DNA of 64,000 bases, taken from the NCBI RefSeq assembly GCF_020523795.1, contig NZ_JAJALI010000017.1:1-64000 (forward strand), given 5' to 3'. Position numbers and translations under genes: made by a program. Below, piece by piece: positions 3,596 to 11,503 of the stretch; positions within the stretch are counted from its first letter, which is position 1, and every line of letters begins with the position of its first letter. This DNA comes from Ancylobacter sp. Lp-2 (GTDB lineage Bacteria > Pseudomonadota > Alphaproteobacteria > Rhizobiales > Xanthobacteraceae). The notes beneath the pieces were generated by a model. That model had not been told where the DNA came from, made no database searches, and was given only the letters and a program-made list of their open reading frames with translations.

Positions 3596-3897
3596 GCATC
3601 AACATAAAATTCGATATCGCCCGCGTCGTCGTCGCCGAACGCACGCTGGGCAAGAAGGTCGGCGACATCGTTGCCGAGGCCCAGTCTGACACCGGAATGT
3701 CGCTCGCTGCCCTACGCGTCCTGCTGGCCGTCGGCAGCTTCGACCGCCGCTGGCCCATGGTGCCTCCCGTTATCAGCTGGATCGACGAGCGGCGTGCGGA
3801 CGAGCTCCTGCACAAGCACGGCCTGACTACCTGCGCTGCTGCGGTCGGTTCGACCCTTGGCGCGTTCCTGCGCTCGATCGAGAAGGAGGCCGCGTAA
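3592..3897 (+). CDS. Small phage protein upstream of tape measure
   Basis: Protein of 101 residues, with ATGA overlap to the gp10-like gene and a one-base overlap (TAATG) with the tape measure gene. It shows no recognised domain. Its position directly before the tape measure is where tail assembly chaperones normally lie, so that role is inferred from position alone. Confidence 0.6.
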   Translation: MSINIKFDIARVVVAERTLGKKVGDIVAEAQSDTGMSLAALRVLLAVGSFDRRWPMVPPVISWIDERRADELLHKHGLTTCAAAVGSTLGAFLRSIEKEAA

Positions 3898-6107
3898 TGG
3901 CTTCATCGGCGGGCGCGGTATTCGTCGACCTTGGGCTGAGCAGCGCCAGCTTCCACAGCGGCCTGCAGAAGGCCGGCAAGGATCTCGATGGCTTCGGGAA
4001 GGACGCAAAACGAACGGGCGGCATCGCTCGCGCTGCTCTCGCCGGTGTTGGAGATGGACTTCGCGCTGGCCTGGCTGGGCTCACGATCGCTGGTGCGTTC
4101 GCCGGGCTGAAGGCGGTGACGTCGGATCTGGCGCAACTCAACGCCGAGGCGAAGCGAGCCGGTGTCGGCGCCGAGGCATTTCAGGAACTGGCCTACGCGG
4201 CGAAGCAGTCCCGCGTCGGGCTGGACGCCCTGACGGACGGCCTCAAGGAGCTTCAGCTGCGGGCCGACGAATTCGTCGTCACCGGACAGGGTAGCGCCGC
4301 TGAGGCGTTCCAACGGCTTGGCTATACAGCCGAGGATCTGGGTAAGAAACTCGCCGAGCCCGATAAGCTCTTCGAGGAGATCATCGACAAGCTGGCGAAG
4401 CTGGACCGCGCCTCGCAGATCCGCATCGCAGACGAGTTGTTCGGCGGCACCGGCGGTGAGCAGTTCGTGCAGTTGCTCGACCGCGGCGTCGGCAGCGTGG
4501 CCAAGCTCCGGCAGGAGGCGCGCGACACCGGCAACGTCATCTCTCAGGAGATGATCGACAAGGCCGTCGAGTTGGACCGCCAGTTCGACAAGATCGCGAA
4601 CACCGTGTCGACGAGCCTGAGATCCGCGCTCGTCGGCGTCGTGAACGTCATGTCGCAGTTCGTCGACATGCTTGGCGACGTCGGCAACCAGAGCACTTCG
4701 ACCATCCAGAAGCGCCTCGACCTCGCGAAGGCGGCACTGCCCAAGTACAAGAGCTACGGCTTCAGCGACGCCTATATCGCCGAGCGCGAGGCGGAGATTA
4801 AGCAGCTTGAGGACGAGCTCGCCCGCCGCCCCAAGGCCGTTGTGACCGTGAACGCTCGCCCGGCGGCAGGTGCTGGCGACAAGATGGCCGGCCTGGACAA
4901 GGGGTTCCAGACCAACCTGCAGAGCTTCATCGATTCCGCGAACACCATGGGATTCAACATTGGTGTGACCTCCGGATTCCGCACGGTCGAGCGCCAGCAG
5001 CAGCTTTGGAACGAGGCGCTGAAGAAGTACGGCTCCGTCGCTGAGGCGCGGAAGTGGGTGGCTCCGCCGGGCTCCAGCAACCACAACAAGGGGCAAGCCG
5101 CCGACCTGTCGTTCGGCTCCGATGCTGCCCGCCAGTGGGCGCATGACAATGCGAAATCGTTCGGGCTGAACTTCCCTCTCTCCAATGAAAATTGGCACAT
5201 CGAGCCGGCTGGTGCGCGTGGTGGCGAGTCTCAGGCCGACGCCTACAAGGATGTGGTTTCGTCCGCCAACGAGCGCATCCGACAGATGCAAATCGAGCAG
5301 CAGGCGCTCGGCATGACCACGCAGGCTGCGGCGGCGTACCGGTTCGAGCAAGATCTACTGGCCGAAGCTCAACGCCAAGGCATTGAGCTCACCCCCGAGC
5401 ACACGGCCGGCCTGCACGCGCTGGCGCAGCAGTACGGCAATCTGCAGGCTGCTGCGTCGGCCTCCGTTGATGCCCAGCACCGTGCTGCCGAGGCGGTAGC
5501 CGAGGTGAATAGCATCGGGCGTGATGTGATCGGCGGTGTGATTTCCGACCTGCGTGCCGGTGCCGATGGAGCGGAGGTATTTGCGAACGCCCTGTCGCGG
5601 GTCGCCGATCGGCTGGTGGATATCGGGCTGAATGCCCTATTCCCGACTAACGGCTCAGGCGGGCTGCTGGGTTCGCTCTTCGGCTCGCTGTTTGGTGGCG
5701 CGGCCGGCTTCTCCTCCGGCGGCTACACCGGCTCGGGCGGCAAGTACCAGCCCGCCGGCATGGTGCATAAGGGCGAGTACGTCTTTGATCAGGCGTCCGT
5801 TCGTGCGGCCGGTGGCCCTGGCGCTCTCGACGCGATGCGCCGCGGCCTGAAGGGGTACGCCAGCGGTGGCTATGTCGGCAGCGCGCCGACCCTGCCGAAC
5901 GTGGCGGGCGTGGCGCGGCAGGCTCCATCCATGTCGTTCCACACCACTGTCGACGCCAGCGGGTCGACAGTGAGCGAAGCGCAGATCCGCGCGATCGTGG
6001 CTGAAGGCAACCGGCAGACGGTCAAGCAGGTGCGTCGATCCGTTAGCGGGTGGACGCAGGACGACGCGATGCGAGCTCCGGCTCGGCCCGGCACTCACTC
6101 AAGGTAG
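3897..6107 (+). CDS. Tail tape measure protein with M15 peptidase domain
   Basis: Protein of 736 residues. The N-terminus has the alanine and glycine-rich helical pattern of tape measure proteins, including a putative membrane-active stretch near residues 55-70. An M15-type peptidoglycan peptidase domain (D-Ala-D-Ala carboxypeptidase/endopeptidase fold) occupies about residues 330-440: GVTSGFRTVERQQQLW, then SSNHNKGQAADLSFG and ENWHIEP. The Zn ligands are His396, Asp403 and His434. The C-terminus has glycine-rich repeats ending in the usual GGYTGSGGKYQPAGMVHKGE motif of tape measures. Such embedded peptidases are thought to open the cell wall during genome entry. Its length suggests a modest siphovirus-type tail. 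Confidence 0.87.
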   Translation: MASSAGAVFVDLGLSSASFHSGLQKAGKDLDGFGKDAKRTGGIARAALAGVGDGLRAGLAGLTIAGAFAGLKAVTSDLAQLNAEAKRAGVGAEAFQELAYAAKQSRVGLDALTDGLKELQLRADEFVVTGQGSAAEAFQRLGYTAEDLGKKLAEPDKLFEEIIDKLAKLDRASQIRIADELFGGTGGEQFVQLLDRGVGSVAKLRQEARDTGNVISQEMIDKAVELDRQFDKIANTVSTSLRSALVGVVNVMSQFVDMLGDVGNQSTSTIQKRLDLAKAALPKYKSYGFSDAYIAEREAEIKQLEDELARRPKAVVTVNARPAAGAGDKMAGLDKGFQTNLQSFIDSANTMGFNIGVTSGFRTVERQQQLWNEALKKYGSVAEARKWVAPPGSSNHNKGQAADLSFGSDAARQWAHDNAKSFGLNFPLSNENWHIEPAGARGGESQADAYKDVVSSANERIRQMQIEQQALGMTTQAAAAYRFEQDLLAEAQRQGIELTPEHTAGLHALAQQYGNLQAAASASVDAQHRAAEAVAEVNSIGRDVIGGVISDLRAGADGAEVFANALSRVADRLVDIGLNALFPTNGSGGLLGSLFGSLFGGAAGFSSGGYTGSGGKYQPAGMVHKGEYVFDQASVRAAGGPGALDAMRRGLKGYASGGYVGSAPTLPNVAGVARQAPSMSFHTTVDASGSTVSEAQIRAIVAEGNRQTVKQVRRSVSGWTQDDAMRAPARPGTHSR

Positions 6108-8309: not shown

Positions 8310-8501
8310 GTGGGCATACAAGTTAATGTGCCGCCGAATTCACTTGGCGAGCTTCTGCAAAGCACAGACAGCATTCAAATGGCTGCTGAGTTGGGTAGGC
8401 TGGATTTCATTGCGGCTATACTAGAGTGCGTCGCGTTGCTGATTGCTGTTTTTGGCTTTCTTGGCTTTTGGGCATTGCGTCCCTTGGTAGCCACCCGCTA
8501 G
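8310..8501 (+). CDS. Small single-pass membrane protein
   Basis: Protein of 63 residues from GTG 8310. Residues 1-30 are soluble and 34-56 form one membrane helix (AAILECVALLIAVFGFLGFW), followed by a basic end. No strong ribosome site is visible. Small one-helix proteins of this type are common near phage lysis genes, but no endolysin lies nearby. The function is not recognised. Confidence 0.45.
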   Translation: MGIQVNVPPNSLGELLQSTDSIQMAAELGRLDFIAAILECVALLIAVFGFLGFWALRPLVATR

Positions 8502-8542
8502 GCCACCAGCTATCCTTCCTGCCATGGTAATCCACCACACCC

Positions 8543-8596
8543 ACCCTCCGAAGACGTCCGTGCGCCATAGGGGCGCACCGGCGATTGTCGGAGGGT
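8543..8596 (+). promoter_or_regulatory. Nested hairpin burying a ribosome binding site
   Basis: A 9-bp perfect outer stem pairs 8543-8551 with 8588-8596, enclosing a 7-bp perfect inner stem (8560-8566 with 8572-8578). The 3' outer strand contains GGAGGG, the ribosome site for the ATG at 8600. In RNA this would hide the site, so translation could depend on opening of the structure. Seen directly; the regulatory role is inference. Confidence 0.55.
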
Positions 8597-8599
8597 CAC

Positions 8600-8761
8600 A
8601 TGCACCACAAGCGGAAACGCCCGAAATCAACGCGGGCGGGATGCCTTCTTTGTAAGCCTTGGAAGCGTCAGGGCACCTGTCTGCACGATCGCGATAAACC
8701 CTCAGATATGCGGCGACGGCTTGTCGCCGACGAGAAGGTGCGCGAGTTCAAGTGCGACTAG
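8600..8761 (+). CDS. Small basic CxxC protein (MHHKRKRPK type)
   Basis: Protein of 53 residues with ATG at 8600 and GGAGGG five bases upstream. It starts MHHKRKRPKSTRAGCLLCKP and ends in a charged helix. Short proteins beginning MHHKRKRPK with a CLLCKP motif recur in Proteobacteria, from my memory of the family; no function is established that I can name. The CxxC pair, with a later Cys and a His, could hold a metal. Its ribosome site is buried in the hairpin described separately. Confidence 0.7.
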   Translation: MHHKRKRPKSTRAGCLLCKPWKRQGTCLHDRDKPSDMRRRLVADEKVREFKCD

Positions 8762-8774
8762 CCCAGAGGACGCA

Positions 8775-8894
8775 ATGGCCAAATTCTGTCGTTGCGTCGC
8801 CCATCAGCAGCAGCCCGCGCAGAAGCGGCAGAGAGGGCGGGTACGGGTGCTAACGGCCACACTGGCCGCTAGCGGCGATTTCTGGGGCGCGTAA
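8775..8894 (+). CDS. Very small basic protein downstream of CxxC gene
   Basis: Possible 39-residue protein from ATG 8775 with AGAGGA five bases upstream, 13 bases after the preceding stop. It starts MAKFCRCVAHQQQ and is arginine and glutamine-rich. Its translation signals are good, but it is too short to judge by composition. Product not recognised. Confidence 0.4.
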   Translation: MAKFCRCVAHQQQPAQKRQRGRVRVLTATLAASGDFWGA

Positions 8895-8994
8895 GGGGCA
8901 TCGTGCGGACAGCAAGGGATAGGCCGCCTTCGGGACGGCCTTCGCTTACATTCAGGCTGCACCCGACCACGGATACGACGTTGGCTGCCCCGCC

Positions 8995-9243
8995 CTATGG
9001 CGCCGCGCTAGGAGATTGTTGGCCTGAGCGCCGAACAGCCTGCCGTGTGACGCTCGAGGTGTTCTTCGTCAGCCGCAGCAGCTTGCGATGAGCCGCCAGC
9101 ACCTGCCGCCAGTGGTGCTCGCTGAGCCGGAGCATCGTAGCACGCTCTTTTCGATCCGGAGAGCGTCTTACCATGGCAAGGGCAGCAGATAGATCCTCAA
9201 GGGCTAGCTCGAGATCCGACACGGTTTCGTTGATATCCGACAT
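8995..9243 (-). CDS. Hypothetical helical phage-region protein
   Basis: Protein of 82 residues from ATG 9243 (MSDINETVSDLELALEDL); an upstream start at 9297 would add 18 residues. Almost wholly helical and charged (LSEHHWRQVLAAHRKLLRL). No domain recognised. It lies on the opposite strand to the phage left module, in the same direction as the RHH and XRE regulator genes. Confidence 0.5.
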   Translation of the reverse strand: MSDINETVSDLELALEDLSAALAMVRRSPDRKERATMLRLSEHHWRQVLAAHRKLLRLTKNTSSVTRQAVRRSGQQSPSAAP

Positions 9244-9323
9244 GACCCGCCCCGAGTCCTCTAGGTGGCATCCTGCCATGGATGCAACCAACGTCAAGGG
9301 CGCTGGCGCGCCGAAGGATGGGC

Positions 9324-9359
9324 GGCCGGGCGTGACTAAGGGGCTAGTAACGCCCGGCC
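9324..9359. repeat. Perfect 10-bp inverted repeat (hairpin 1)
   Basis: Arms 9324-9333 (GGCCGGGCGT) and 9350-9359 (ACGCCCGGCC) with a 16-base loop. No T-run follows on either strand. It lies in the non-coding gap between the helical protein and RHH genes. Confidence 0.6.
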
Positions 9360-9425
9360 TAGGCCTGCGCTCGTAACACCGGGGTTGCGGTGAGGGGGAG
9401 CGTCACGCCGTCCATGAATTCGATG

Positions 9426-9455
9426 GCTGGGCACGCTGACCATAACGTGCCCAGC
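9426..9455. repeat. Perfect 10-bp inverted repeat (hairpin 2)
   Basis: Arms 9426-9435 (GCTGGGCACG) and 9446-9455 (CGTGCCCAGC) with a 10-base loop, 79 bases downstream of the RHH gene stop on the minus strand. It could act as a processing or termination signal for the minus-strand regulator transcript, although it lacks a T-run. Confidence 0.6.
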
Positions 9456-9533
9456 CTGCCGATGCCCGAGGGCTGGGAGCCAGGCACCGGCCTTTCAGGG
9501 TACCGGCTCGAATGGTCACAGGCAACCGCGTGC

Positions 9534-9854: not shown

Positions 9855-10094
9855 CTACCCCTGCCGCTCCCGTAGTCGCACGCCGGGGCCGTTACCGTTC
9901 TGATCGATGAAGATCACGCCTGCCGTCTCGAGGGCGGCACGGATGGCTGCAACTGCGTCCGAAGACACTCTAGCGCCGGTGCCGGTTTCAAAACGCTTTA
10001 CCGTTGGCAACGACATGCCCGCGGCTTGCGCGAGTTCGGTCTGAGACCAGCCGATAAGCCCTCTGGCGGCGCGAGACTGAGCGGGTGAAATCAT
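9855..10094 (-). CDS. XRE-family phage repressor-like regulator
   Basis: Protein of 79 residues if translation begins at MISPAQ (10094); upstream ATGs at 10112 and 10139 would add up to 15 residues. Residues 1-60 form a Cro/C1-type helix-turn-helix (ARGLIGWSQTELAQAAGMSL, then TVKRFETG). The end (GVIFIDQNGNGPGVRLR) is typical of short alphaproteobacterial XRE regulators. The start region is the divergent promoter of the plus-strand gene at 10163, so it probably represses that gene and itself. Confidence 0.8.
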   Translation of the reverse strand: MISPAQSRAARGLIGWSQTELAQAAGMSLPTVKRFETGTGARVSSDAVAAIRAALETAGVIFIDQNGNGPGVRLRERQG

Positions 10095-10097
10095 GCT

Positions 10098-10127
10098 TGA
10101 CCAATTTTGGATCATTTCATATGATCC
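10098..10127 (+). promoter_or_regulatory. Promoter and operator for the 10163 operon
   Basis: A -35 (TTGACC, 10098-10103) and a -10 (TATGAT, 10120-10125) are 16 bases apart. A perfect inverted repeat GGATCAT/ATGATCC (10109-10115 and 10121-10127, 5-base spacer) overlaps the spacer and the -10, and a further related half site (GTATCAT) lies at 10133-10139. Binding by the adjacent XRE protein would block the plus-strand promoter. Confidence 0.65.
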
Positions 10128-10162
10128 TTTTTGTATCATGCATCTTTCGCCGGAGCAAAGCC

Positions 10163-11427: not shown

Positions 11428-11503
11428 TGGTGCCCAGGGACGGAGTCGAACCGCCGACACTGCGATTTTCAGTCGCATGCTCTACCAACTGAGCTACCTG
11501 GGC
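11428..11503 (-). tRNA. tRNA-Phe (GAA)
   Basis: 76-base cloverleaf on the minus strand with a 7-bp acceptor stem (GCCCAGG pairing with CCTGGGC), the anticodon loop CTGAAAA giving anticodon GAA, a GTTCGAC T-loop and an encoded CCA (11428-11430). Its 3' end faces the phage-derived region, which makes it a candidate integration site. Confidence 0.95.

Follow-up and report, generated by a model that had tools for sequence, protein, structure and literature searches.

A conserved hairpin crossed by an upstream reading frame at the ribosome-binding site of a small CxxC protein gene in Ancylobacter sp. Lp-2

How is a gene to be translated when its ribosome-binding site is folded into a stable hairpin? 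This question is raised by a locus in Ancylobacter sp. Lp-2, within the first 64,000 nucleotides (nt) of contig NZ_JAJALI010000017.1 (assembly GCF_020523795.1; hereafter the window), where the gene for a 53-residue basic protein with a CxxC motif (8600..8761; all features are given on the + strand) is preceded by a large hairpin. The initial annotation, made from the letters of the window, had described a perfect stem of 9 base pairs (bp) that includes the Shine-Dalgarno (SD) sequence GGAGGG, with a perfect 7-bp stem inside it, and had likened the arrangement to a translational switch. Sequence and fold agree exactly with that hairpin: the outer stem pairs ACCCTCCGA (8543..8551) with TCGGAGGGT (8588..8596), the latter holding GGAGGG at 8590-8595, 4 bases 5' of the main ATG, and the inner hairpin (8560..8578) pairs GTGCGCC (8560-8566) with GGCGCAC (8572-8578) around the loop ATAGG, its core CGNGCGCC..GGGGCGCACCG being nearly invariant among the aligned leaders. 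Folding of the RNA at 8520-8640 gave -52.2 kcal/mol compared with -40.23 ± 3.82 kcal/mol for shuffled sequences (z -3.13; none of 200 shuffles was as good), and the SD six-mer of the window has a predicted unpaired probability of 0.00. This stretch is best explained as a leader that acts in cis and is dedicated to one small accessory gene, most likely a switch that reads the ribosome traffic on an upstream open reading frame (uORF). The idea of a switch was reasonable for a hairpin that is conserved and covaries, but its most telling part, a uORF running in frame through the hairpin, had been overlooked.

The comparison with homologous genes and the search for compensatory changes, both proposed with the initial annotation, were carried out and favoured the hairpin, which stands before 29 of the 73 homologue rows examined and whose two halves covary; its carriers are Hyphomicrobiales and phage contigs. 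The 29 leader rows are L001 (the window), L080, L009, L011, L014, L022, L024, L026, L034, L039, L047, L051, L053, L063, L064, L068-L074, L092, L094, L099, L100, L102, L104 and L105. Ten near-copies were excluded (L061, L075, L082, L093, L095-L098, L103 and L114), as were, from the 44 comparison rows without the leader, 17 loci that are cut, duplicated or ambiguous in their start (L013, L021, L023, L031, L062, L076, L085-L088, L091, L109, L117, L118, L121, L123 and L125); re-fetched copies of the same places and L003-L008, whose matches were too weak for homologues, were left unused. A covariance model (R1) built from 7 leaders recovered 29 true sites among 78 loci with no match in the remaining 49, its 10 extra matches being the reverse strands of the same palindromes; it finds the leader in 10/10 near-copies and no leader in the 17 excluded loci, some of which are cut at the leader. 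When applied to sampled genomes, the model matched twice in the window's own genome and seven times in the family of G316 (297 genomes), and its two matches in a sample of the order (297 genomes) only repeated sites already found. All 9 distinct genome matches adjoin the gene for the 53-aa (amino acid) CxxC protein, and as far as was searched the leader element is confined to this gene. The SD sequence of the downstream gene is base-paired in the leader hairpin, its mean unpaired probability being 0.10 in the 29 leaders and 0.37 in the 44 rows without leader, two groups that overlap. On the protein tree, presence of the leader requires 6 changes as compared with 22.9 for shuffled labels; the starred branches force at least 2 changes, and many forks of this tree are unresolved.

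Several lines of evidence indicate that the pairing itself has been maintained. When the leaders were divided at the loop and every 5' half was folded anew with the 3' halves of all the others (27 leaders; L105 and L080 not included), the native combinations summed to -798.1 kcal/mol and the re-paired ones to -697.7 kcal/mol (standard deviation 15.3), none of 100,000 reaching as low a value; with the inner hairpin held constant, the outer stem and linkers alone still beat 100,000 of 100,000 permutations (20 leaders), though such counts are not strict probabilities, the compared sequences being mutually related. Pair counts over 25 leaders, in an alignment fitted to the structure model, gave a covariation score of 0.093 versus 0.066 after shuffling (0/500 as high). 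These data bear on the possibility that the palindrome is a repressor site in the DNA and the RNA fold a by-product. As might be expected of an operator, the perfect palindrome made by the inner arms is conserved and lies some 35 nt past the putative transcription start; on the other hand, the outer arms and linkers covary although their sequences differ (0/100,000), which would be needless for a DNA site, and a reading frame is kept as well, so that we give this explanation hardly any credit.

Changes in the inner stem are few. In L022 a C-G pair has become G-C and a U-A pair has become C-G, L014 has a half change and L105 one, and 6 U-A pairs are broken among the 25 aligned leaders; the same C-G to G-C flip was seen by eye in L053 and L064, which lie outside the pair-count alignment. 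The inner core is conserved in sequence beyond what pairing needs, and this is the main opening for a bound factor: the basic, cysteine-containing product of the gene (or another protein or ligand) might bind the inner hairpin and lock the SD sequence, with the uORF acting only to tune this lock. In favour of such autoregulation, the core CGnGCGCC..GGGGCGCACCG is kept more strictly than base pairing demands, 25/25 aligned leaders have the same C ahead of the stem, the same G at the end of the loop and the same C behind the stem while pair 19-35 is broken in 6/25, the element was found only before this gene in the searches made, and the protein is small and basic. However, the centre of the loop varies freely, 44/73 homologue rows keep the protein without the element, and the reading of uORF codons could add to the conservation of the core. 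We consider autoregulation unlikely, if worth bearing in mind.

The feature that argues most directly for a role of ribosomes is the uORF, which in the window (8524..8655) encodes 43 aa beginning MVIHHTHPPKTSVRHRGAPAIVGGS in the -1 frame relative to the main ORF; its ATG lies 76 nt 5' of the main ATG, its frame crosses both arms of the hairpin and it ends 56 nt inside the main ORF. Among 28 leaders (L080 left out), an ATG located 29-56 nt before the inner stem occurs in the frame that reads through the hairpin in 26, compared with 2 and 2 in the other frames, and when the search was widened to 100 nt (28 leaders; L105 left out) all 28 had an ATG in the frame GTG-CGC-CAT, the other frames having 0 and 4. 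L105, which was added later, also has an in-frame ATG, so that in all 29 leader rows the frame is open into the hairpin. The distance to the inner stem is 32-38 nt in 25/29 leaders and varies by whole codons. Most of these frames (27/29) run beyond the main ATG and end 23 to 137 nt downstream of it (median 56), whereas in L047 and L094 the stop is in the loop; in L064 the uORF is in another frame relative to the main ORF and still reads through the hairpin. The same comparison weighs on the view that the leader is an RNA-only switch, either a thermometer or a riboswitch, to which the uORF is incidental. A strong, covarying hairpin that masks the SD sequence is what such a switch would look like, but 26/28 leaders have the ATG at a set position in a single frame, compared with 2 and 2 for the other two frames, and no Rfam match was obtained: searches of Rfam 15 with the window at E values up to 5 gave two sub-threshold matches, neither of them over the hairpin, and with 12 related loci matched only tRNAs. 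Hence an RNA-only switch appears improbable.

While the start and frame of the uORF are fixed, its peptide is not. Among 24 leaders (five rows left out) and 6 codons, the synonymous share of single-base codon changes was 0.235 compared with 0.237 expected, and variation at the three codon positions was alike (0.655, 0.661 and 0.688). Neutral codon changes combined with a fixed place and frame of the ATG indicate that start and frame have been kept and the peptide has not, and the best explanation would be that the selected feature is the entry of ribosomes in frame through the hairpin. In this regard, R-A-G-P and R-A-P-P are the arrest motifs of SecM and of ApdA/ApdP, and the R-G-A-P of many uORFs (VRHRGAP in many rows) resembles these, as would fit an arrest peptide that stalls the ribosome within the hairpin. 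The Ala-Pro pair is indeed kept in most leaders; nevertheless, the RNA stem also constrains these letters, the stem flip in L022, L053 and L064 turns the ending into AAP or TAP and L105 has GVP, the uORFs of L047 and L094 end in the loop, ahead of the motif, and the part before the hairpin evolves neutrally and leaves only about 18 residues ahead of the motif. No conserved nascent-chain arrest sequence was found in the uORFs of the 29 leader rows, and an arrest peptide seems very improbable. A fusion of the uORF and the main ORF by frameshifting was also considered and dropped, since leader-free homologues begin at the same M(A)HHKRK and the uORF of L064 is in the other frame.

The promoter region gives an indication of how ribosomes may enter this frame. 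A putative -10-like hexamer, TATCCT (8511..8516; matrix score 4.1), lies 7 nt before the uORF ATG, and in a scan of 26 leaders (without L080, L014 and L011) the best 4-nt window of offsets for such a box was 4-7 nt before the uORF ATG, with a mean score of 2.22 versus -1.62 ± 0.99 across all the windows tried; in 19/26 leaders, a hexamer with a score of 1.0 or more lies 5-7 nt upstream of the ATG. For L100 the inner ATG was scored, its outer ATG having TATCTT 6 nt before it. The -35 matrix weakly favoured a spacing of 17 nt among 10-23 nt (mean -1.55, all others -2.56 or lower), in 22 rows whose anchor hexamers were picked by eye, so that only the -35 spacing is informative there; both weight matrices follow Escherichia coli frequencies. 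Since transcription that begins 6-8 nt downstream of a -10 box would start on the ATG or next to it, these uORFs are probably leaderless, the mRNA of the window probably having its 5' end no more than a few bases from the ATG at 8524.

The hairpin and its covariation, the buried SD sequence, the start and frame of the uORF, its neutral peptide and the distance of the -10-like box all come from the comparison of leaders, and from there we infer a transcription start, an actual translation of the uORF and a direction of control, as well as any role of the protein. In the proposed mechanism, the mRNA would begin with the short leaderless uORF at 8524, and the hairpin, folding some 19 nt into this frame with the SD sequence in its 3' arm, would keep the main ORF closed by default, until a ribosome translating the uORF strips the 5' arm from the stem and so exposes the SD sequence. 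We regard this core, the opening of the hairpin by a ribosome on the probably leaderless uORF, as reasonably likely. It is common to two modes, between which we see about equal chances. The first would be stall-opened, as in E. coli toiL/topAI, where stalled uORF ribosomes are described to open a hairpin in which the ribosome site of the following gene is concealed (PMC12121999): a ribosome that halts at roughly codons 3-13 would sit on the 5' arm without blocking the main start site. The second would be plain translational coupling, in which each passing ribosome grants the main site a brief open time. The geometry of the window sets these limits, the 5' arm being 19 nt from the uORF ATG, and the leading edge of a ribosome reaching about 15 nt beyond its P site according to the toeprint distance of PMC4965119. 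A ribosome at the uORF start codon would therefore be clear of the 5' arm; it would reach over the arm from about codon 3 onward and, by about codon 13, start to crowd a ribosome initiating at the main site. A ribosome held in the first codons would open the gene whatever it decodes, which suits a neutral peptide. A more elaborate version joins this mechanism to autoregulation: the leader would be a so far unrecorded RNA class on mobile elements, in which a leaderless uORF, kept solely as start codon and frame, gauges ribosome occupancy independently of sequence and the invariant inner hairpin is bound by the CxxC protein; translation stress and self-repression would then be in competition at a single ribosome site. 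We take this combination to be rather unlikely.

Some observations weigh against a uORF-driven switch and define how far it can be taken. The protein can evidently work without the leader, which is missing from the 44 comparison rows, including every row outside Hyphomicrobiales. Covariation in the inner stem is thin, this stem being mostly invariant, and the SD sequence has an unpaired probability above 0.25 in L063 (0.45), L100 (0.37), L099 (0.35), L047 (0.30) and L014 (0.26). The -10-like box is poor or absent in L022 (-3.2), L053 (-3.0), L092 (-1.1), L034 (0.0) and L051 (0.6), and the window itself has no -35 match at 17 nt. Regarding the start codon, the usual position is without an ATG in L011, which offers a TTG or an inner ATG instead, and L014 has one only at 14 nt; furthermore, in 17/29 rows a second in-frame ATG lies inside the hairpin, 5 nt before the inner stem, so that the upstream ATG need not be the sole start. 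Finally, an ATG-started ORF over the main start is also found in 17/44 rows without the leader, and thus overlap alone is not telling, whereas a fixed place and frame are.

The separate parts of this leader have precedents. It has reportedly been found that a uORF is coupled to the downstream gene at iraD, with genes, signals and architecture that differ from those of the present leader. The closest likeness is to toiL/topAI, which also has a uORF within an SD-hiding hairpin, before a toxin-antitoxin gene that is itself of the accessory type; the present leader differs in sequence and host group, its downstream protein is unrelated as far as searched, and its uORF, known here from sequence comparison, looks leaderless and is kept only as a start and a frame (PMC12121999). 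E. coli mRNAs with a 5'-terminal uAUG, e.g., ptrB, likewise carry a leaderless uORF before an SD-led gene and can thereby alter expression, but what sets the present case apart is a hairpin and uORF conserved across genera, with a 5' end that is deduced (PMC4965119). In the same order of bacteria, the leaderless trpL of Sinorhizobium meliloti is a short ORF at the very 5' tip of its mRNA whose translation has been demonstrated by Ribo-seq; it attenuates transcription and its 14-aa peptide is functional, unlike the present SD-masking hairpin with an unselected peptide (PMC10117765, PMC7298713). For a DUF1127 gene of S. meliloti, a rhizobial uORF has been proposed to signal the availability of ribosomes to the small gene behind it; the mechanism there is transcription attenuation, brought about by C-rich codons at the beginning of the uORF (PMC12218461). 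In Salmonella, a short ORF, mgtQ, controls or couples to the masked ribosome site of mgtB, with genes, signals and architecture that differ from ours (PMC8092293). A literature search by title and abstract retrieved no earlier description of the leader or of the 53-aa protein, and the combination of these parts, together with their conservation beside the 53-aa CxxC gene, is new as far as our searches reach. If the proposed mechanism holds, the leader would represent a conserved, compact natural design in which evolution preserves the translation of an upstream frame rather than its peptide, and in which leaderless initiation controls an ordinary SD-led gene; such leaders could then serve to find out directly under which conditions leaderless initiation is favoured, or ribosomes stall, in rhizobia and related bacteria or in their prophages.

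The controlled gene encodes a protein that begins MHHKRKRPK and reads MHHKRKRPKSTRAGCLLCKPWKRQGTC...FKCD. In 26 aligned homologues K4, R5, C15 and K22 are invariant, and K6, P8, C18, K19, P20 and G25 are kept in at least 90%. Profile searches against Pfam, NCBIfam, PHROGs, PADLOC and the PDB with the window protein and the 26 homologues assigned no family; the 26 homologues gave only single-member matches (E 0.017-0.08), and one further search gave none up to E 10. An AlphaFold2 model of the 53-aa protein (mean predicted local distance difference test score 69.3, predicted template modelling score 0.34) contains one helix at 28-52 and no confident fold around the CxxC motif. Binding of zinc or RNA is possible, as in the initial annotation, which saw in the CxxC and basic residues a possible site for a metal or nucleic acid. 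A consistent terminator after the main ORF was not found (4/29 leader rows versus 27/580 random stretches). Records of homologues extend to Alphaproteobacteria, Gammaproteobacteria, Acidobacteriota, Nitrospinota and Gemmatimonadota, and this widely spread, unnamed small-protein family is worth study in its own right.

As regards its genomic setting, the first 11 kb of the window are phage-like. The ORF at 3897-6107 encodes a tail tape measure protein (PHROG E 7.9e-118), that at 9855-10139 a phage-type transcriptional regulator, and a tRNA-Phe gene (11428-11503) closes the phage-like stretch, these three marking the end of a prophage-like region. The same genome has a second copy of the gene (L080), with 92% amino acid identity and a leader identical from the uORF ATG onward; it lies in a different element, which carries a phage-type integrase (E 2.9e-30) and a tRNA-Leu gene. 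Window positions 8487-8830, which cover promoter, leader and gene, match this second element at 90.7%, and positions 8932-9492 match at 95.2%, but on the opposite side; the swapped order of the two shared blocks indicates that pieces have been reshuffled between the elements. The gene is sporadic, being present in 3/61 relatives, 10/397 genomes of the order and 14/394 genomes of the G316 family. One locus of that family, L082, agrees with Rhizobium croatiense L068 in both leader and protein, which suggests that the G316 family is that of Rhizobium. The leader row L070 is from Rhizobium johnstonii 3841. Viral contigs account for 5 of the 29 leader rows, a sixth row (L100) has a copy on a viral contig, and one row is on a Bosea plasmid. 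A scan of viral contigs for the hairpin pattern returned 12 stretches, of which only L132 and L139, both already known, are at the gene, the rest looking like chance matches in coding sequence.

Some minor observations concern the neighbourhood of these genes. A tRNA gene is present in the 1.5-kb flanks of L068, L070, L072, L074, L104, L026 and L039, that is, 7 of the 27 related leader loci besides L077, a count made over leader loci only. In L083 and L090 (G291) there are two matches 1 kb apart, and the gene and its upstream sequence were read at one place only. The homologue in Rhizobium phage RHph_N3_2 (L091, 5938-6135) is annotated as a hypothetical protein, has an ambiguous start and lacks the leader. 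Other sequence features were noted upstream of leader-free homologues. L045, L052 and L055 (Bosea, Beijerinckiaceae) have in common a stretch like CTATARCACYARG about 30-50 nt before the gene, without a hairpin. On viral contigs, L012 and L017 (both 1411-1500) have a different short hairpin, GCCGG..CCGGC, just before the SD sequence, and L020 (806-895; with its copy L021) has a related GC-rich hairpin at the same place; the open frame over these hairpins reads TPVTPA or APVAPV, and together they may perhaps constitute a second class of leader.
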